Origin: Bacillus sp. FJAT-29790
GTDB lineage: Bacteria; Bacillota; Bacilli; Bacillales; Cytobacillaceae
NCBI RefSeq assembly: GCF_019039215.1
Contig: NZ_JAHNZZ010000001.1
Coordinates: 2,571,424 to 2,635,423, forward strand
Reading direction: 5' to 3'
DNA: 64,000 bases
Part shown: positions 17,299 through 59,230 of the stretch, piece after piece
Layout: every line of letters begins with the position of its first letter
How positions within the stretch are numbered: position 1 is the first letter of the stretch
Made by a program: the position numbers and the translations under genes
The notes under the pieces: generated by a model
Databases searched by the model: none
Told to the model about the DNA's origin: nothing
The model's input: only the letters and a program-made list of their open reading frames with translations

Positions 17299-18834
<1,536 letters not shown>

Positions 18835-28541: not shown

Positions 28542-28895
28542 CTAAGGCACCCCCGGGTAAAACCGTCCCAGCTTTTCTACTTGTCCATCTACAGCACCTA
28601 GCCCCGACGTATAGGACGTACTAGTGTCGACAATGCGACAGGATAAGGAAAGCTTCGGTAGAATAATCATCGCACGCAGAAAAAGTGCTTTTCTTTTTCG
28701 AGGACACAGCTGTTTGTCGATCTCGAGGTCATAAGCCAAGCCGACAAGAAGGTTAAAGAACACCCTTCATGCCGACTCGTCTTATGCTTGTCGGACTTGC
28801 ACAGGATGTGCTGACGTCGACGTTCGCCACGGGACGTGGCGAGTTTAGTCGACGCTCCTCTACCAAGATGCCTCCACTTTTCTACTAATATCGCC
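28542..28895. repeat. Composite GC-rich repeat between ccpA and motP
   Basis: About 350 bases richer in GC than the surroundings, with no credible gene. It holds several short hairpins with a GGA-type loop: TGCACAGGATGTGC, GCCACGGGACGTGGC and ACGTATAGGACGT. It also has paired CGTCGAC and GTCGACG and the words CTAGCCCCGACG and AGCCGACAAGAAG. I recall similar intergenic repeats in many Bacillus genomes. Confidence 0.6.
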
Positions 28896-50841: not shown

Positions 50842-52272
50842 TTAGATCGAAAATCCGCCAAGCTTCGTTTCTAAATATTCTTGAATTCCTTCCTTTCCGC
50901 CTTCCCTGCCTAGCCCACTTTCGTTCATTCCCCCAAATGGGGCAGCGGCGGAAGTTGGATTGATATCGTTTATACCAATAATAGCAAAATTTAGTTCTTC
51001 AAATGCCTTCATAGCTTTTGATAGGTCTTTCGTATACACATATGCCGCCAGACCGTACTGCGTATCGTTTGCCATCTCTAACACTTCTTCATCAGACTCA
51101 AACGTAATAATTGGGGCTACAGGGCCGAATGTTTCTTCCCTGAAAATTTTCATTTCCTTATTAATTCCCGATAAAATCGTCGGTGCATAATAAGTGCCCT
51201 TATCAAGCCCATTATCTGTCAAGCGGTATCCCCCAGTTATTAATTGGGCTCCCTTCTCGGTCGCGTTTTTTACTTGTCCATCCACCTTTGCAATTGCCGT
51301 CTCACTTACAAGCGGACCAATACTAATTCCATCCTCTAATCCATTGCCAGCCCTTAGTTTATTTACCCGTTCAATCAAGGTTTTAGTAAATTCTTCTGCA
51401 ATTGACTTATGTACAAAAATACGATTCGGGCTAATACACGCTTGCCCGGTATTTAGAAATTTCACTAATGAAACGCCTTTTGCAGCATGTACTGGGTCAG
51501 CATCATCATAAACGATAAATGGTGCATGCCCGCCCAATTCCATCGATATCCTTTTTACATTTTTTGCCGCCTTTTCAGCGATATTTTTTCCGACTTCAGT
51601 TGATCCAGTAAAGGTTATTTTTTTCACAGCTGGATTCGTCAATAATTCCTCCCCAATTTCTTCTGGCCGGGATGATGAAATTAAATTAATAACACCATTT
51701 GGAATTCCTGCATCAGCAAGAACTTTAAATACCTCTCTCGCACATAGGGGCGTTTCTTCAGCGGGTTTTAAAACAACGGTACAGCCGGCAGCAAGAGCTG
51801 GAGCAATTTTTCTAGTAATCATTGAAACTGGATAATTCCATGGAGTAATCGCACCAACCACTCCGATTGGCTGTCGGATTGCTATAAACCTTTGATCTCG
51901 TCTTGAAGCTGGAATGACCTCGCCGTATACCCGTTTTGCCTCTTCTGCATACCACAATAAAAAATCAGCTGCATATTGAACTTCATTACGCGCAGCCTTT
52001 AATGGTTTTCCTTGTTCCAAAGTCATTAATCTCGCAAGCTCTTCTTTTCGTTGTATCATTATTTCATATGCTTTATATAAAAAATTAGAGCGCTCATAAG
52101 CCGTAAGTTTAGACCATGTACGAAAGCTTTTGGCAGCTGCTTCAATCGCTTTTTTCGTATCATTAATATTCCCATCAGCAACTTTTTCAATCTCTTCCCC
52201 ATTTGCAGGATTGAAAACAGGAAACCAATTATTTGATTCTGATTCGATCCATTGACCATTAATATAGAGCAA
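50842..52272 (-). CDS. NAD(P)-dependent aldehyde dehydrogenase, succinate-semialdehyde type
   Basis: A 476-residue ALDH-superfamily enzyme oxidising an aldehyde to its acid. The conserved catalytic glutamate is in SMELGGHAPF and the catalytic cysteine in NTGQACISPNR. The nucleotide-binding GSTEVGK and the AITPWNYP segment are present. The nearest group is GabD-like succinate-semialdehyde dehydrogenase, but substrate assignment from sequence is weak; with an acyl-CoA ligase cluster, acetaldehyde or another short aldehyde is also possible. The start is a TTG at 52272 with AAGGAGG eight bases upstream. It is the last gene of the S-box operon, 126 bases after the hydrolase gene. Confidence 0.88.
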   Translation of the reverse strand: MLYINGQWIESESNNWFPVFNPANGEEIEKVADGNINDTKKAIEAAAKSFRTWSKLTAYERSNFLYKAYEIMIQRKEELARLMTLEQGKPLKAARNEVQYAADFLLWYAEEAKRVYGEVIPASRRDQRFIAIRQPIGVVGAITPWNYPVSMITRKIAPALAAGCTVVLKPAEETPLCAREVFKVLADAGIPNGVINLISSSRPEEIGEELLTNPAVKKITFTGSTEVGKNIAEKAAKNVKRISMELGGHAPFIVYDDADPVHAAKGVSLVKFLNTGQACISPNRIFVHKSIAEEFTKTLIERVNKLRAGNGLEDGISIGPLVSETAIAKVDGQVKNATEKGAQLITGGYRLTDNGLDKGTYYAPTILSGINKEMKIFREETFGPVAPIITFESDEEVLEMANDTQYGLAAYVYTKDLSKAMKAFEELNFAIIGINDINPTSAAAPFGGMNESGLGREGGKEGIQEYLETKLGGFSI

Positions 52273-52398
52273 ATTGTATACCTCCTTAACTGTAATAAGA
52301 AAGAGAGAAGAATCTCTCTTCCCCCCTCGAATTTATTAGTAAATTTTAATTATTCCCCAACCCATATAAGTTGTTTTTCTGGAGTAAATAACGATGGA

Positions 52399-53100
52399 TT
52401 AAACTGTTTGCGTTTCAACCTCTTGTACAAATTCAGTAAGCGCAAGAATAAACTCCTTTGGTTTTTCTAGCATAATATAATGACCTGAGCCCTCAATTTC
52501 TGTAATTTTCATATCCGATTTTACATTTTTTAGTGATTCGGCTGCACCAATTGGCAATAGTCGGTCTTGGCTTCCTAAAATTGCATAAATCGGAATATTC
52601 AGTGACGAAAGAGCCCTTTTTCCTTCTGTATATTGATTACAGGCGTTAAAATCTGCATAAGTGATTTCAATTGGTACTTGATTTAATTCCTGTTTTTCTT
52701 CTTCAAGCAAATGTTCACTTATGTCTTTGTTGTATGATGCGTAAAATAACGAACTTGGATACTCACCATTTTCCAACTTTTCAAGCATTTTGGGATGTAC
52801 TGGTAATTCATAGAAGCTTGCTGCAAGGACAACTCCTTTTACTTTTTTGCTTCTGGCAGCCAATTCAAGTGCAATTAGGCCACCCATCGAATGACCGACT
52901 ACAATTGTATCTTCCTGAATGGCTTTGTCAATATTAGCGGCATAATCTTGAATACTAGCAAATATGCTAGTTTCATTGTCCCCATGCCCCGGAAGATCAA
53001 TCACTTCAAATTGGGATGATTTGAAATAACCCCCTACTGCTCTCCATTTACTTTTTGTTCCGCCAGCACCATGAATGAATAAAATTTTATATTTGCCCAT
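52399..53100 (-). CDS. Alpha/beta hydrolase
   Basis: A 233-residue hydrolase with the oxyanion loop HGAGGTKSKW, the nucleophile elbow GHSMGG (Ser about residue 71) and a catalytic histidine in GSGHYIMLEKP. The aspartate is in LGSQDRLLP. The family covers esterases, thioesterases and lyases, so the substrate is open; in this operon a CoA-thioester or ester hydrolase is plausible. Its ATG overlaps the stop of the acyl-CoA dehydrogenase gene by one base (TAATG), a sign of coupled translation. Confidence 0.88.
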   Translation of the reverse strand: MGKYKILFIHGAGGTKSKWRAVGGYFKSSQFEVIDLPGHGDNETSIFASIQDYAANIDKAIQEDTIVVGHSMGGLIALELAARSKKVKGVVLAASFYELPVHPKMLEKLENGEYPSSLFYASYNKDISEHLLEEEKQELNQVPIEITYADFNACNQYTEGKRALSSLNIPIYAILGSQDRLLPIGAAESLKNVKSDMKITEIEGSGHYIMLEKPKEFILALTEFVQEVETQTV

Positions 53101-54269
53101 TAGCGCCCTCCTAAGATCGTCCTTGCAATTATTAAGCGTTGAATTTGGTTCGTTCCTTCATAGATTTGCGTAATTTTAGCATCTCTCATCATTCTCTCCA
53201 CTTCATATTCCTGGATAAATCCATATCCGCCTAGAAGTTGGACTGCATCTGTCGTGACCTTCATTGCAACGTCTGAAGCAAACATTTTCGCCATGGAGGA
53301 TGCTTGCGTTAATTCCGGATTTTTTCCAGTTGATGTCAGTTCATTTACTTTTGAAGCCGCTTTATAAACAAGACCTCGTGCAGCTTCGATTTGTGTAGCC
53401 ATATCTGCCAGCATAAATTGAACAGCTTGAAAAGAAGCAATGCTTTTTCCAAACTGTTCTCTTTCTTGAACATATTCTACTGCAGCATCGAATGCACCTT
53501 GTGCGATTCCTAAGGCTTGAGCAGCAACAGTTGGTCTTGACTTATCAAAGGTTTTCATGGCAATCATCCAGCCATCCCCATCTTCACCAATTCTATTCTC
53601 TACGGGAATTCTACAATTATCAAAATAGAGCTGAGCTGTTGGCGATCCTTTGATTCCCATTTTTTTCTCCAATTTACCTACTTCAAATCCTGGAGTGTCC
53701 TTCTCTACTACAAAGGCTGTAATTCCCTTATCAGTCTGCGCAAATACAGAGTAAACATCTGCAACACCACCATTGCTGATAAACATCTTCTGGCCGTTTA
53801 AAATATATGAGTTCCCGACACGCTCCGCGCGGGTTTTTAAGCTTTTTACATCAGATCCCGCATTCGGTTCAGTTAAGGCATATGCTGCAATCTTTTTTCC
53901 AGTGGCTAAATCAGGAATATACCTTTTCTTCAAGGAATCTCCCCCGCCAATAATAATCGGTAATGTTCCTAGCTCTTGTACGACTGCCACTTGTGAAGAT
54001 GATGCACAAACCCTTGCAATTTCCTCTACAATCAGGCAAAAACTAAGCAGATCAAGACCCGCCCCTCCATACTCTTCCGGCATATTCGCACCAATATATC
54101 CATACTCTGCAAGGAGATGCAAAATATCCATCGGGTATTCCGCTTGTTCGTCAATTTCTATTGCTCTAGGCTTAATTCGTTCCTGTGCCAAACGATGAAT
54201 TTCCTGTTTAATTTGAAGGTGATCCTCTGATATTTCAAAACTATGATGCTGCACTTTTTCTGCCTTCAT
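53100..54269 (-). CDS. Acyl-CoA dehydrogenase
   Basis: A 389-residue FAD enzyme that introduces a trans-2 double bond into an acyl-CoA, passing electrons to ETF. The typical segments are YALTEPNAGSDVKSLKT, MGIKGSPTAQLYFDNCRIP, RPTVAAQALGIAQGAFDAA and QLLGGYGF. The catalytic base glutamate is in QIYEGTNQIQRL near the C-terminus. The size is that of short-chain acyl-CoA dehydrogenases, without the 200-residue extension of DmdC-type enzymes. It lies 14 bases after the ligase gene, with AGGGGAGGAAAG before its ATG. Confidence 0.93.
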   Translation of the reverse strand: MKAEKVQHHSFEISEDHLQIKQEIHRLAQERIKPRAIEIDEQAEYPMDILHLLAEYGYIGANMPEEYGGAGLDLLSFCLIVEEIARVCASSSQVAVVQELGTLPIIIGGGDSLKKRYIPDLATGKKIAAYALTEPNAGSDVKSLKTRAERVGNSYILNGQKMFISNGGVADVYSVFAQTDKGITAFVVEKDTPGFEVGKLEKKMGIKGSPTAQLYFDNCRIPVENRIGEDGDGWMIAMKTFDKSRPTVAAQALGIAQGAFDAAVEYVQEREQFGKSIASFQAVQFMLADMATQIEAARGLVYKAASKVNELTSTGKNPELTQASSMAKMFASDVAMKVTTDAVQLLGGYGFIQEYEVERMMRDAKITQIYEGTNQIQRLIIARTILGGR

Positions 54270-54283
54270 CTAACTTTCCTCCC

Positions 54284-55846
54284 CTAAATTTCAGCAAGCT
54301 GGTCAGCAAGCACGAATTTTTGCATTTTTCCGCTTGTCGTCTTAGGAAGACTTCCTACAAAATGATATTCTCTAGGGCGTTTAAATTTTGCCAGCTGCTT
54401 TCCTTCAAGTAAAAATTGGTCAAGCTTGTCCTCTGTTAATGTGCTTCCTTCCTTTTTAACGATAAATGCAACAACGATTTGCCCCCATGTCGGGTCAGGC
54501 TTGCCTAACACGGCTGCTTCAAGGACTTCAGTATGTTCTAGTAATTGATCTTCTACTTCTCGGGGATAAATATTCTCTGCACCAGAGTTGATCATGTAAT
54601 CCATTCGATCTTTAATCCAAATATAGCCTTCCTCATCAACATAGCCCATATCGCCAGTATGATACCAGCCATAGGCAAGAGCATTTTCAGTTGCTTCAGG
54701 ACGTTGAAAATATTCTTTCATCATGCATGGACCTTTTACAAGAATTTCTCCTATTTCCCCTACTTCACATTCATTATCGGGATTCGTCGGACTTCCATCC
54801 TCCTCGACACGGGCAATTTTCATTTCATGTGTAAGGATGGCTTTACCAGCTGATCCGGCCTTTTCTAATTGCTCATCGGCATAGAGAACGCTCATGACTG
54901 GCCCCATCTCTGTTGTCCCAAACATTTGCACTAAATCAGCATTGGTTTTCTCTTGAAACCTTCTGATCAGCACTGGAGCCATAGAGGCCCCTCCATAACC
55001 AAGAAGTCTCAGTGAAGAAAGATCAAAATCTTCAAAGCTTTTCACGTTTAGAAGCATGTTCACCATTGTCGGGGCTGCAAAAATATGAGAAACCCTCTCT
55101 TCCTCAATCGTCTTTAACACTTTTTCCGCTTCAAAAGAATGCAGCAGGATCGTTGTAGCGCCTACCATTACTTTTGGAAGAAAAGACGTATGTAGTTCCG
55201 CTGTATGATTCAGAGGCGCAACGGAAAGTCCGATATCATTTTTGCTAAATCCGTTGCATTCAATCATGAGAAAGTTATGGTGGACCATATCTCGATGCTT
55301 GTGAATGACACCCTTAGGACGCCCGGTTGTTCCGCTTGTGTACATCATAATGTAAGTATCATTTTCAGTTACATGAACATTAGGCTCTGATTGATGGCCT
55401 TTTTCTAGTAGTTTATAAAAATCAAGTGCTTCTTCAGGGACCGTTTCGTCCGTATAAATATAATGCAAAACATTTGCTCCTAATTTCCTCGTTTCTTCAA
55501 TCACACCTGCCACTTCTTTTTCAAATAAAAGAACCTTTGATTGAGCATCATTTAAAATATACTGTAGTTCACTCGCGGTTAGACGGTAATTGATAGGATT
55601 GAAAATCGCCCCAATTTTCGCCGAAGCAAATAAAGCGACAACAAATTCACTTGTGTTATAGAGAAATGTAGAAACAACATCACCCTTTTTAACACCTAAT
55701 TGAATCAAGGAAGAAGCAAATTGATTTACCTTATAATTTAATTCACCAAACGTAAAGCTTTGATTTTTCTCCCGATAAATTAATGCAGGTTTATTCGGAT
55801 AATTTTGAGCGGACCAAACGATTAATTCCCCAACTGTGGTACTCAC
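54284..55846 (-). CDS. AMP-forming acyl-CoA ligase
   Basis: A 520-residue ANL-superfamily ligase that activates a carboxylic acid as its CoA thioester. The nucleotide motif is YTSGTTGRPKGVIHKHRD, with MFGTTEMG and WYHTGDMGYVDEEGYIWIKDR later, and the C-terminal catalytic lysine in LPKTTSGKMQKF. The substrate is not predictable by eye; long-chain, benzoate-like or methylthio acids are all possible. The start is GTG at 55846 after AGGAGGCAGATTC. It is the third gene of the operon, 26 bases after the dehydrogenase gene upstream. It is a separate gene from the similar ligases at 1.3 and 22.1 kb. Confidence 0.93.
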   Translation of the reverse strand: MSTTVGELIVWSAQNYPNKPALIYREKNQSFTFGELNYKVNQFASSLIQLGVKKGDVVSTFLYNTSEFVVALFASAKIGAIFNPINYRLTASELQYILNDAQSKVLLFEKEVAGVIEETRKLGANVLHYIYTDETVPEEALDFYKLLEKGHQSEPNVHVTENDTYIMMYTSGTTGRPKGVIHKHRDMVHHNFLMIECNGFSKNDIGLSVAPLNHTAELHTSFLPKVMVGATTILLHSFEAEKVLKTIEEERVSHIFAAPTMVNMLLNVKSFEDFDLSSLRLLGYGGASMAPVLIRRFQEKTNADLVQMFGTTEMGPVMSVLYADEQLEKAGSAGKAILTHEMKIARVEEDGSPTNPDNECEVGEIGEILVKGPCMMKEYFQRPEATENALAYGWYHTGDMGYVDEEGYIWIKDRMDYMINSGAENIYPREVEDQLLEHTEVLEAAVLGKPDPTWGQIVVAFIVKKEGSTLTEDKLDQFLLEGKQLAKFKRPREYHFVGSLPKTTSGKMQKFVLADQLAEI

Positions 55847-55872
55847 GAATCTGCCTCCTATCTCCTAACCTT

Positions 55873-56715
55873 TCAATATTCAAAAAAGCCTTTTCCTGTT
55901 TTTCTACCTAAATGTCCCGCCCTTACCAGCTTTCTTAGTAGTGAAGCAGCCCGGTATTTAGAATCTTGTGTTTCTTCATATAATGAATCTTGAACAAATA
56001 GAAGGGTGTCTAGACCAATTAAATCGGCAAGTGCAAGTGGTCCGATCGGATGATTGGCACCAAGCTTCATACCTTTGTCAATGTCCTCGGCGGTCGCTAC
56101 ACCTTCTTGTAGAACAAAAATGGCCTCATTTATCATCGGAACTAAAATTCGATTGACGGCAAATAGTGGTGATTCCTTAACCGCGACTGCTTCCTTGCCA
56201 AGCGATTCTACAAGCGCTAGTGATTTTTCGTAAGTCTCATCCGTAGTGTCATATCCCCTAATCAGTTCCACCAATTTCATAACTGGCACTGGATTAAAGA
56301 AATGGAACCCCATGACTCTCCCGGGATCTTTCATCACACTTGCTATCTCAGTAATACTCAACCCTGATGTATTGCTGACGATAATTGCTTTTTCATTCAC
56401 TGATTGATCGATTTTCCTGAAAATATCTTTTTTTAGCTCCATATCTTCACTAACCGCTTCAATGACAAAGTCAGCATCCGCAATGCTTTCCCACTCCGTA
56501 GATGTAACGAGCAGTTTTTCGTATTTTGTTTGAGTTTCTTCATTCAATCTTCCTTTTTCAATCGCTCTGTTCCAATTTTTCTGAATTTGTTTCAATCCGC
56601 GATCAAAGTAAGCCTTTTCCTTTTCAATCGCAATGACCTCATAGCCTGCCTCAACACATACTTGTGCAATCCCAGCACCCATAGTACCAAAGCCGATAAC
56701 GCCAATCTTCTTCAT
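55873..56715 (-). CDS. 3-hydroxybutyryl-CoA dehydrogenase family protein
   Basis: A 280-residue NAD-dependent 3-hydroxyacyl-CoA dehydrogenase, oxidising 3-hydroxyacyl-CoA to the 3-oxo form. The Rossmann motif is IGFGTMGAGIAQV at the N-terminus, the catalytic histidine is in GFHFFNPVPVMKL, and ILVPMINEAIFVLQEG and GANHPIGPLALADLIGLD follow. The ATG at 56715 has AGGAGGAGAAAAGG upstream. It is the second gene of the operon, 17 bases after the crotonase gene. Its presence argues for a full beta-oxidation-like sequence as well as the simpler methylthio route. Confidence 0.94.
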   Translation of the reverse strand: MKKIGVIGFGTMGAGIAQVCVEAGYEVIAIEKEKAYFDRGLKQIQKNWNRAIEKGRLNEETQTKYEKLLVTSTEWESIADADFVIEAVSEDMELKKDIFRKIDQSVNEKAIIVSNTSGLSITEIASVMKDPGRVMGFHFFNPVPVMKLVELIRGYDTTDETYEKSLALVESLGKEAVAVKESPLFAVNRILVPMINEAIFVLQEGVATAEDIDKGMKLGANHPIGPLALADLIGLDTLLFVQDSLYEETQDSKYRAASLLRKLVRAGHLGRKTGKGFFEY

Positions 56716-56732
56716 CCTTTTCTCCTCCTCAA

Positions 56733-57497
56733 TTAATTACCTTTAAATACTGGTTCTCTTTTTTCAAGAAAAGCGGATACTCCTTCTTCCTTATCCTCTG
56801 TTGTACAGATTTCACTAAACAATTTAGCCTCAAGCTTTAAGCCTTCATCTAAAGATATGCCGATACCCTTTGTTATCGCTTCTTTCGCCTTTTGGACAGC
56901 AATAGGTCCTCTTGAAGCAATCACTTCCGCAAGCTCTATTGCCTTGCCTATTGCATCTATTTCTGTCACTTCTTCAATGATGCCATAATGAAAAGCTTCC
57001 TCAGCAGAAATGAATTCTCCTGAGAAAATGAGCCGCATCGCCTTTCCCGTGCCAATTAAACGAGCTAACCGTTGTGTCCCCCCGTATCCTGGAATGATGC
57101 CAAGCTTTACTTCAGGAAGGCCAAATTGAGAGCGTGCGCTAGCAATGCGGATATCACATGCAAGCGCAAGCTCTAACCCTGCGCCTAAAGTAAACCCGTC
57201 GATCGCGGCAATTACTGGCTGTTTCAATTTAGCTAACCTGTTAAAAACAGACTGCCCTCGCAAACAAAGTGCTTCGCCTGCTTCTGGTGTTAATCCCGGG
57301 AATTCCTTAATATCAGCGCCAGCTACAAACGCCTTTGTTCCAGCCCCTTCAATAATGACAACAGCAACATCTTCCTCTATTTGCAAGATGACCTCTTCCA
57401 AGCGATTAAAAACAGCACGATCGAGCGAGTTAACAGGAGGGGAATCTATTGTGATAATGCCAATCTTACCTCTTTGTTCGTATTTAACTTTAGACAT
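56733..57497 (-). CDS. Enoyl-CoA hydratase (crotonase family)
   Basis: A 254-residue crotonase. The oxyanion-hole segments are AFVAGADIKEF and GFTLGAGLELALACD, and both catalytic glutamates expected of a hydratase are kept, in LGAGLELAL and FGLPEVKLG. The related methylthioacryloyl-CoA hydratase DmdD uses the same pair, so sequence alone does not separate the two. I chose the ATG at 57497 with AGGAGTGATATAT before it. It is the first gene after the S-box riboswitch, which ends 143 bases upstream with no other promoter evident. Confidence 0.94.
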   Translation of the reverse strand: MSKVKYEQRGKIGIITIDSPPVNSLDRAVFNRLEEVILQIEEDVAVVIIEGAGTKAFVAGADIKEFPGLTPEAGEALCLRGQSVFNRLAKLKQPVIAAIDGFTLGAGLELALACDIRIASARSQFGLPEVKLGIIPGYGGTQRLARLIGTGKAMRLIFSGEFISAEEAFHYGIIEEVTEIDAIGKAIELAEVIASRGPIAVQKAKEAITKGIGISLDEGLKLEAKLFSEICTTEDKEEGVSAFLEKREPVFKGN

Positions 57498-57640
57498 ATA
57501 TATCACTCCTAATCTTTTCGATTTTTAAATTGCCTATTTTCATACATTGATTGTTTCGATGATTTCTCCCTTTATTCAAATATGAATAATAGGAATTATA
57601 ATTTTAAAATAGTCTCACCTTCTATCTAAACTAGCTAGAA

Positions 57641-57672
57641 TAAAAAAACCTCTTCTATAGAATTAGAAGAGG
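57641..57672 (-). terminator. S-box intrinsic terminator
   Basis: Minus-strand arms CCTCTTCTA (57672-57664) and TAGAAGAGG (57657-57649), then a run of seven T. The 3' strand of the aptamer P1 stem, AGAAGAGG, is complementary to the first arm and can form the competing antiterminator. Confidence 0.9.
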
Positions 57673-57693
57673 TCAGAGTACACGAAAAGTCCT

Positions 57694-57795
57694 CTTCTTA
57701 TCTATCAAGTCATACTTGCTGGAATTGGCACGGTACAAGCAAGTCCGTTGCCGAGGTGTCATAGGGCCAGTCCCTCAACCTCTCTTGATAAGAAG
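57694..57795 (-). promoter_or_regulatory. SAM-I (S-box) riboswitch aptamer
   Basis: On the minus strand, P1 arms CTTCTTATC and GATAAGAAG enclose GAGGGACTGGCCC (57776-57764), GGCAAC (57752-57747) and GTGCCAATTCCAGC (57731-57718). These are the conserved S-box blocks in order and spacing. The switch ends transcription when SAM is bound. It faces the enoyl-CoA hydratase operon. Confidence 0.97.
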
Positions 57796-57832
57796 TATTT
57801 TAAATATTCAATTTGATTAACACTTGATACTT

Positions 57833-57861
57833 ACTCTATATTGTAAAATAAAGTATGTCAA
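57833..57861 (-). promoter_or_regulatory. Sigma-A promoter of the S-box operon
   Basis: Minus strand TTGACA (57861-57856), a 17-base spacer, and TAGAGT (57838-57833), about 38 bases before the aptamer. Confidence 0.65.
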
Positions 57862-57884
57862 CTATTTTTCATTATTTCACCATA

Positions 57885-57975
57885 ATTCAGAAAAGCGTAA
57901 GCACCTTTTGGATTAATCAAGGAACAGAATGTTCCTGCGATGATCATGCTGCTGAAGCGTTCCTCGTGGAGCTAG
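57885..57975. repeat. Degenerate GC-rich intergenic repeat
   Basis: AAAAGCGTAAGCACC, TGTTCCTGCGATGATC and TGGAGCTAGACAG. The words resemble the AGCGGAAGCGCC to GGAGCTAGACA repeat common in Bacillus and recur near 60.5 kb. Confidence 0.45.
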
Positions 57976-59024
57976 ACAGTGAAAAATTCCTGAATATATG
58001 TTTCACTTACACCGTCTAATGAATCCGGCTGCCATTTTGGCGAATGGTCTTTATCGACCAATACAGCCCTGACGCCTTCAAAAAAATCAGGAGTATGTAA
58101 AAAGTTAAGAGCAACATGAACATCCATTTCAAAACTTTCTTTCAATGTTTTCTCTTTTCCTCTTCTCATAAGTTCTAATGTCACTTTTAGTGAAGTTGGT
58201 GATTTTGAAAGAAGTGTATTTCTTGTTTTCTCTGCCCATTCGTCCCCTGTGCTTGCACTTTCTTCTAATGATTCAATTATTTGCTCCACTGTTTCAAATT
58301 TGAAATGTTGATTGATTTTTTTCTCATCTAGGTTGCGTAATAGCGTGTCCACTTTCAAACAAATCGGTTCCAAATATTGCTTCAGTCTTTCAGATGCAGT
58401 TTCCTTTTTCCAAACGTTATTTTTAATAAAATTTTCTAATTCGCACAATTTACTGCTCTCCATATAATAATCGGCTGCATTTGTGTAAAGAATATCTCCT
58501 CCTTTTATGACATTCGAAGTCAAAGCGAGATAAATGCCAATTTTACCTGGCATTTGATTAAGGAAATAATTAGCACCAACATCAGGGAAAAACCCGATAT
58601 TCATTTCAGGCATCGCCCATTTCGTTTTTTCCGTAATTATTCTAAACTGAGCACCTACAGATAGACCGACCCCGCCGCCCATAACAATGCCATCCATAAA
58701 TGCCAGCACCGGCTTTGGGTATTCATGGATAAGTAAATCCATTTTATATTCTGTTGCAAAATATTCTTTCGGAATCATCGACGAAGGATTCATTTTCGCG
58801 GTTTCACAAATTGCCCGCACATCTCCCCCAGCACAAAACGCCTTTTCACTTTGACTTTTAATGCAAACAAGTGAAACATCATCATTCGTAGACCACTCTT
58901 TTAATTGATGATAAATATCTGTCACCATTTGCAGCGATAATGCATTTAAAGCTTTAGGACGATTTAAAATAACCCATCCTGTTCCTTGGTGTTCTTCAAA
59001 CAAAACTTCATTCTCCGTTATCAT
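57972..59024 (-). CDS. 3-hydroxyisobutyryl-CoA hydrolase, crotonase family
   Basis: A 350-residue crotonase-fold thioesterase of the HibCH type, acting in valine catabolism. The two residues used by the hydrolase are in MPEMNIGFFPDVGANYF (Glu and Asp). The oxyanion segments AFCAGGDVR and GIVMGGGVGLSVGA are kept, and the C-terminal VRAVLVDKDHSPKWQPDSL is characteristic. I chose the ATG at 59024 with AAAGGAAG upstream, although an ATG at 59045 with AGGGTGATAA is a real alternative. It ends before the S-box promoter, so it is a separate unit that is not SAM-regulated. Confidence 0.88.
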   Translation of the reverse strand: MITENEVLFEEHQGTGWVILNRPKALNALSLQMVTDIYHQLKEWSTNDDVSLVCIKSQSEKAFCAGGDVRAICETAKMNPSSMIPKEYFATEYKMDLLIHEYPKPVLAFMDGIVMGGGVGLSVGAQFRIITEKTKWAMPEMNIGFFPDVGANYFLNQMPGKIGIYLALTSNVIKGGDILYTNAADYYMESSKLCELENFIKNNVWKKETASERLKQYLEPICLKVDTLLRNLDEKKINQHFKFETVEQIIESLEESASTGDEWAEKTRNTLLSKSPTSLKVTLELMRRGKEKTLKESFEMDVHVALNFLHTPDFFEGVRAVLVDKDHSPKWQPDSLDGVSETYIQEFFTV

Positions 59025-59230
59025 GAGACTTTTTCTTCCTTTCATTTATCACCCTATGCAGCTAAGGAGGTAGAATTTTCTGTTTTTTTCATTATAGCAT
59101 ATTGTTAATTTCATTAAGAATTAAATACTAACTATGGGGGACCTTGTGATTGTGATAATTTCTCCATTTGAAAAAGCGATTGCTAATGTATAGCCTTACT
59201 TACAAATAAGCAAAATAGATGAAGAATGAT

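Follow-up and report, generated by a model that had tools for sequence, protein, structure and literature searches.

A predicted SAM-I riboswitch precedes an acyl-CoA operon in Bacillus sp. FJAT-29790 and may link it to sulfur scavenging

We analyzed a 64,000-nucleotide stretch of the Bacillus sp. FJAT-29790 genome (contig NZ_JAHNZZ010000001.1, positions 2,571,424 to 2,635,423; hereafter, the window). Its minus strand carries six open reading frames at 50842–57497, confirming the six-gene operon that an earlier sequence-only reading had proposed. In gene order, these encode a crotonase-family enoyl-CoA hydratase (ECH, 56733–57497; assigned by family and motif, with both catalytic-type Glu motifs), a member of the 3-hydroxybutyryl-CoA dehydrogenase family (HBD, 55873–56715; 402.9 bits against the cut-off of 408 for NF004474), an AMP-forming acyl-CoA ligase (LIG, 54284–55846), an acyl-CoA dehydrogenase (ACD, 53100–54269; catalytic-type Glu motif YEGT), an alpha/beta hydrolase (ABH, 52399–53100; GHSMGG), and a succinate-semialdehyde dehydrogenase-like aldehyde dehydrogenase (ALDH, 50842–52272; 607.1 bits against the cut-off of 646 for TIGR01780). 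The intergenic gaps are 17, 26, 14, −1, and 126 bases in the same order, and motif location found the catalytic-type motifs kept in all six proteins. No thiolase gene lies in the operon. The membership of ALDH is less sure than that of the other genes because a terminator scan placed a terminator-like hairpin between ABH and ALDH (52328–52303, minus strand), by which ALDH may be partly uncoupled from the operon. A gene of the 3-hydroxyisobutyryl-CoA hydrolase family (57972–59045, minus strand; 421 bits against the cut-off of 274 for NF004127) lies directly upstream, outside the transcript of the riboswitch described below, and is also found near the cluster at four related loci (L041, L042, L072, and L094). 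Elsewhere on the minus strand of the window, Rfam scans detected a T-box leader (18606–18833, 139 bits) and a Bacillaceae-1 RNA (28798–28864, 66.1 bits).

The leader of the operon, also on the minus strand, contains a full-length SAM-I (S-box) aptamer at 57794–57695, which matched RF00162 with 91.2 bits (E = 1.8e-20; model positions 1–108 of 108; gathering threshold 44.4) and was also recovered by a whole-genome search; no other S-box in the window reached that threshold. A sigma-A-type promoter, TTGACA-N17-TAGAGT, precedes it at 57861–57833 (10 of 12 matches in the promoter scan), and an intrinsic terminator stem-loop with a U tract follows at 57674–57641 (scan site 57674–57647, with a T-rich tail). 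The terminator hairpin alone folded at −13.6 kcal/mol, and none of 200 shuffled sequences was as stable. The sequence-only reading had claimed exactly these three elements, and the full-length match, the promoter, and the hairpin bear it out. In the usual S-box layout, SAM closes the P1 helix, the terminator arm is freed, and transcription stops. Here, GAAGAGG continues from the 3′ strand of P1 and is complementary to the 5′ arm of the terminator, CCUCUUC, with which it can form a 7-bp antiterminator stem (57697–57666, −7.2 kcal/mol). In the predicted structures, antiterminator and terminator are mutually exclusive, and the terminator with its competing antiterminator makes up a predicted expression platform. 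The sequence-only reading had also held that a second promoter between 57500 and 57640 would free the operon from SAM. Scanning of 57450–57950 gave six promoter-like sites on both strands (shuffled mean 2.2, sd 1.4); two overlapping sites at 57630–57601 lie on the operon strand downstream of the terminator, are poor matches (9 of 12), and may represent a weak second promoter.

In its full-length aptamer, terminator/antiterminator layout, and upstream promoter, this leader shares the features of known SAM-I riboswitches, whereas its target, an acyl-CoA operon, differs. Various genes behind SAM riboswitches in Bacillales and other groups are described as probably belonging to cysteine or methionine metabolism or transport (PMC3766115). 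In the literature searched, to which any claim of novelty is limited, we found no report of a SAM or S-box riboswitch with an acyl-CoA or CoA-ligase target.

The genome (4.55 Mb in 9 contigs; nearest named relatives Cytobacillus) contains 10 S-boxes. The nine others precede metK (named from its first residues only), metQ and/or metN at four loci (L001, L002, L006, and L007; a family search identified metQ in L001 and L006, and first residues or alignment identified the others), metY at two loci, sfnG, and a gene for an isochorismatase-family hydrolase. Both metY genes, each behind its own S-box, exceed the curated cut-off of TIGR01326, and sfnG (dimethylsulfone monooxygenase) scored 588 bits against a cut-off of 383. 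The set of S-boxes in this genome thus includes organosulfur scavenging and MetY. In other bacteria, MetY joins methanethiol with O-acetylhomoserine, as described in PMC6302742 and PMC5069961. The sfnG locus (L009) and one metY locus (L003) lie together at about 3014100–3017320 of contig G000:C1, where S-box–sfnG is followed by S-box–metY in what appears to be a SAM-controlled organosulfur block. At another locus (L008, S-box at G000:C1:2815333–2815434), the isochorismatase-family hydrolase gene is accompanied downstream by an AmiS/UreI-type gene, which hints at SAM-controlled use of an amide.

Among the operon genes, LIG proved to be recurrently tied to S-boxes. The LIG clade was separated from paralogues of about 50% identity at 100/100 in the tree. 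The clade is uncommon: with the own genome counted each time, 9 of the 397 order genomes and 12 of the 398 class genomes had a match at E = 1e-190 or better, and among 398 genomes drawn from the phylum it had no member besides the own genome. We compared 29 LIG-clade loci, consisting of the window, nine from a contig search, and 19 from the family, order, and class genome draws, with copies removed (L075, L076, L078, and L080, copies of L045, L046, L047, and L044, respectively; L095 was dropped as the own genome). Five places stood at 75% or above: the window and those in G029, G047, and G179 (L041, L042, and L043) were already counted, and that in G030 was added as L094.

Rfam scans covering all 29 loci detected an S-box upstream on the same strand in 12, in four layouts. 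In the window and in Cytobacillus praedii (L042), the S-box stands directly before ECH, followed by HBD, LIG, ACD, ABH, and ALDH, with or without a membrane-protein gene between the last two. In Schinkia azotoformans (L046), the order is S-box, an oscA-like gene (DUF2292), metN, metI, metQ, and then ECH, HBD, LIG, ACD, and ABH. In a third layout, all of one Aneurinibacillus-like family, LIG ends an S-box–metN–metI–metQ unit (five loci: L084 and L088–L091) or an S-box–metQ unit (L092 and L093). The fourth, S-box–LIG–ABH–ALDH, is found in two metagenome-assembled genomes labelled Neisseriaceae (L048 and L049). LIG thus shares its S-box unit with metQ or metNIQ at 8 of the 29 loci. Four Aneurinibacillus-like genomes also hold a second, S-box-less copy of LIG (pairs L083/L084, L082/L088, L081/L089, and L044/L090). 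In a control set, S-boxes were found at none of 20 nearest-paralogue loci, scanned about 5.3 kb upstream; these were chosen from the best matches with upstream room, together with the own genome's paralogue (G010 was skipped, its contig end being near). The difference from 12 of 29 corresponds to a Fisher p of 0.0006 when loci are treated as independent of kinship, and the chance of an S-box per locus was about 0.6–1.1%. On the LIG tree, the S-box label changes five times (shuffled mean 10.2), and the starred branches force at least two changes.

Several of these genomes showed further S-box loci. The two genomes labelled Neisseriaceae (G934 and G935) have four S-boxes each, before metQ-like and metE-like genes (named from first residues) and before LIG–ABH–ALDH; S-boxes in Neisseriaceae are, to our knowledge, unexpected. 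Downstream of S-box–metNIQ–LIG, genes for an M55 D-aminopeptidase, an SDR, and a FAH-family protein are found at L090:9183–11603 and L091:10983–14309, and an alcohol dehydrogenase-family reductase gene follows at some loci. In the Schinkia genome G364, tandem S-boxes (L154) precede genes for an SsuA-family ABC transporter (249 bits, cut-off 163.5) and an acetate-CoA-ligase family protein (811 bits, cut-off 729), and divergent S-boxes (L153) face an NMT1-type ABC transporter on one side and a crotonase gene with two CoA-transferase genes on the other. These two loci suggest that S-box control of import combined with CoA activation is a recurring theme and no accident.

We then compared promoters among the 17 LIG-clade loci without an S-box. 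Ten carry clusters led by ECH (L041, L043, L047, L072, L073, L077, L079, L086, L087, and L094), and all of these except L073 have, upstream of ECH, a −24/−12 sigma54-type site (score 22–25) with one to three GTTTC-N-GAAAC repeats; as background, of the sites with GG and GC cores on the two strands of the window (128 kb), one scored 22 and seventeen scored 21. A sigma54 activator gene lies beside the cluster in L041 (family search), in L072, L073, L077, L079, L086, L087, and L094 (BLAST), and in L042, L043, and L047 (first residues only). L085, which starts at HBD, has a sigma54-type site of score 22 and no repeats. The remaining six have LIG without ECH (L044, L045, L074, L081, L082, and L083; sigma54-type scores 20, 24, 24, 19, 19, and 22), with the repeat in L044 only and a membrane-protein gene after LIG in all but L082. 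This membrane protein, of about 457 residues, is highly conserved beside LIG in many relatives (L041:10996–12366, L081:9556–10962, and others) and close by sequence to PDB 7tak (PurT); it has no Pfam or NCBIfam match, and its AlphaFold model (mean pLDDT 40) is too poor for use.

The window differs from these sigma54-type clusters of Bacilli, which share its genes: it has an S-box instead of the activator, −24/−12 site, and inverted repeats. GTTTC-N-GAAAC repeats were absent from all 64 kb, and no separate sigma54 site was found before ECH, where the best score of 21 (reached by 1.8% of shuffles) sits inside the aptamer. A close orthologue of the sigma54 activator is missing from the own genome (the best candidate is 40% identical and lies on another contig). 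The 457-residue membrane protein likewise has no match there, whereas searches of G030, G047, and G300 each recovered it at E below 1e-279. C. praedii combines both arrangements in series: a sigma-A-type promoter, the S-box, and the terminator are followed by the repeat and TGGCACGATAATTGCA before ECH. Its promoter, TTGACA-N17-TAAAGT, lies at the same place as that of the window. In a comparison of leaders with that of the window, C. praedii scored 98 in the upstream part, against at most 71 for other leaders of the own genome, and 171 in the aptamer, against at most 147.5 for own-genome leaders and 98.5 for Schinkia; behind the aptamer, its 69.5 was not the highest (others up to 73.5).

As the S-box-less relatives show sigma54-type control, the switch appears to have been recruited all the same, and we infer from the promoter regions a regulatory takeover in which the S-box replaced older sigma54-type control. 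Most simply, a sigma54 cluster in this lineage would have acquired an S-box together with a promoter, after which the older control decayed in the line of the window. On this view, the ancestor of the operon would have been a cluster for short-chain acyl-CoA catabolism activated through sigma54. An S-box bringing its own promoter would then have been inserted ahead of it in the Cytobacillus line, and the lineage of the window would later have lost the sigma54 promoter, the activator, and the neighboring membrane-protein gene. Window and C. praedii are not grouped in the gene tree, which is compatible with a single gain followed by losses, with two separate gains, or with transfer.

What the operon does was left between two readings by the sequence-only analysis: part of sulfur metabolism, or a riboswitch recruited for a new role. 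The association of LIG with S-boxes, metQ or metNIQ, and an oscA-like gene speaks for a role of LIG and its operon in the supply of sulfur or methionine. The sulfur reading is favored by the 8 loci where metQ or metNIQ shares the unit, by the persistence of S-box and LIG together in four layouts, and by the mostly methionine and organosulfur genes behind the remaining own-genome S-boxes, while the sigma54-type relatives lend support to recruitment as well. Sulfur scavenging is thus the most likely role of the operon, as judged from gene content and context. As to mechanism, our best candidate, held tentatively and together with the promoter history above, is CoA-dependent breakdown of a methylthio-carboxylate, e.g., 3-methylthiopropionate, to methanethiol that MetY captures. 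Low SAM, hence low methionine and sulfur, would turn the operon on through the transcription-terminating riboswitch. LIG would convert a sulfur-containing short carboxylate to its CoA ester, ACD would desaturate the ester, and ECH would add water; with 3-methylthiopropionate as the most likely substrate, methanethiol would be released, HBD, ABH, and ALDH would clear the C3 rest, and the two S-box-controlled MetY proteins (O-acetylhomoserine sulfhydrylases) would fix the methanethiol into methionine.

Methylthiopropionate ranks first because the ligase, dehydrogenase, and hydratase, all present in the operon with catalytic motifs, form the same series as DmdB, DmdC, and DmdD/AcuH, which convert methylthiopropionate to methanethiol, because DmdB and DmdC are broad, and because sources other than DMSP are possible. 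A broad range among short-chain substrates is ascribed to DmdB and DmdC in PMC5395565, where methionine breakdown and plant volatiles are named among the possible origins, apart from DMSP, of methylthiopropionate (MMPA) or related compounds. Against this substrate, family searches showed that ECH, HBD, and ACD resemble ordinary C4 enzymes. The nearest solved relatives of LIG, ECH, and ACD are not characterized Dmd enzymes: the best for LIG are fatty-acyl, feruloyl, and coumarate ligases, with 6ihk and 6ijb, which we take to be DmdB, ranking 26th and 28th, and the entries that we take to be DmdD and DmdC were absent from the best 60 of 216 solved relatives of ECH and the best 60 of 126 of ACD, respectively. 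ACD and ECH are missing from the Neisseriaceae unit and from the seven loci where LIG is accompanied by metQ or metNIQ only. With 17 of the 29 LIG loci free of an S-box, an older role of LIG may also be unrelated to sulfur.

Two supply routes for this substrate were considered and set aside. Import through the LIG-linked MetQ was unsupported: motif comparison showed that this protein keeps the canonical PNDPTN-AR and NGN motifs, which take part in ligand binding in MetQ, so that it probably binds an amino acid rather than methylthiopropionate, which has no amino group. Internal formation by the side reaction of a nickel acireductone dioxygenase was rejected, as the own genome has no family match to acireductone dioxygenase.

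The enzyme families could also be taken at face value as C4 beta-oxidation, with the S-box governing true short-chain fatty acid catabolism and SAM or methionine acting as a signal of growth or starvation, with no sulfur in the substrate. The sigma54-type clusters of the S-box-less relatives fit this, and an enrichment of beta-oxidation genes under predicted sigma54 control has been reported for Bacilli and Clostridia (PMC12316311). We consider this explanation unlikely, since LIG alone of the operon genes ends S-box–metNIQ or S-box–metQ units at seven loci, occurs with metNIQ and an oscA-like gene in Schinkia, and shares its genome with S-boxes that mostly serve methionine and organosulfur genes. 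Somewhat less unlikely is another sulfur carboxylate, such as mercapto- or sulfinopropionate, an S-alkyl acid, or a keto acid derived from methionine after import, with sulfite, sulfide, or a thiol different from methanethiol as the product: the association points to sulfur and to no single compound, and the two further Schinkia S-box loci (L154 and L153) touch CoA chemistry. Within this group, the desulfinase route from 3-sulfinopropionate is improbable, because ACD keeps its Glu motif YEGT and scored 311 against the cut-off of 600 for 3-sulfinopropanoyl-CoA desulfinase.

An accident of gene loss would also leave a SAM switch before an acyl-CoA operon, if the S-box had belonged to a methionine gene since lost. 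The sequence-only reading had counted relatives with a methionine gene directly behind the same S-box against its claim, and such a case exists: Schinkia has metNIQ between S-box and operon. Its aptamer is far less similar to that of the window than the C. praedii aptamer (98.5 against 171), and C. praedii has no intervening gene. In line with this explanation, the window locus no longer has the activator gene, the second crotonase gene, or the membrane-protein gene that relatives carry. We nevertheless regard it as very unlikely, given that S-box and LIG are kept together in four layouts and that the C. praedii S-box, directly before the cluster, exceeds all own-genome leaders in similarity to that of the window in both promoter region and aptamer.

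The preferred reading, breakdown of a methylthio-carboxylate to methanethiol, has its closest parallels in marine systems. In the DMSP demethylation pathway, ligase, acyl-CoA dehydrogenase, and crotonase likewise act in series before MetY, whereas the window adds HBD, ABH, and ALDH, belongs to Bacillota, and places the catabolic steps themselves under predicted SAM-I control; the likeness is one of enzyme families. SAR11 is described as making methionine from DMSP via MMPA, DmdB, DmdC, methanethiol, and MetY, with a SAM riboswitch on metY (PMC5069961). In its methionine regulon (SAM-V/SAM-II on metY, bhmT, mmuM, and others), as predicted for the genome studied here, SAM riboswitches govern methionine formation from organosulfur compounds including methanethiol. 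Sulfur acquisition in SAR11 is described as constitutive (PMC5069961), whereas in the window the acyl-CoA operon itself carries the switch. With slightly greater reserve than for the mechanism itself, we suggest that SAM riboswitches in Bacillota may govern CoA-dependent mining of sulfur carboxylates, methylthiopropionate for example, to make methionine, that S-boxes may have captured LIG more than once from a sigma54-inducible cluster of carbon catabolism, and that C. praedii, where the two controls stand in series, may represent an intermediate.

If true, this would mean that organosulfur acids also reach methionine by a Gram-positive, terrestrial route beside the marine DMSP one, with an RNA switch that tells the cell when a carbon-like pathway is used for sulfur. 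The S-box-less loci, C. praedii, and the window would together document the stages before, during, and after the replacement of an activator-driven promoter by a riboswitch. The S-box also indicates a growth condition in which to seek the substrate.
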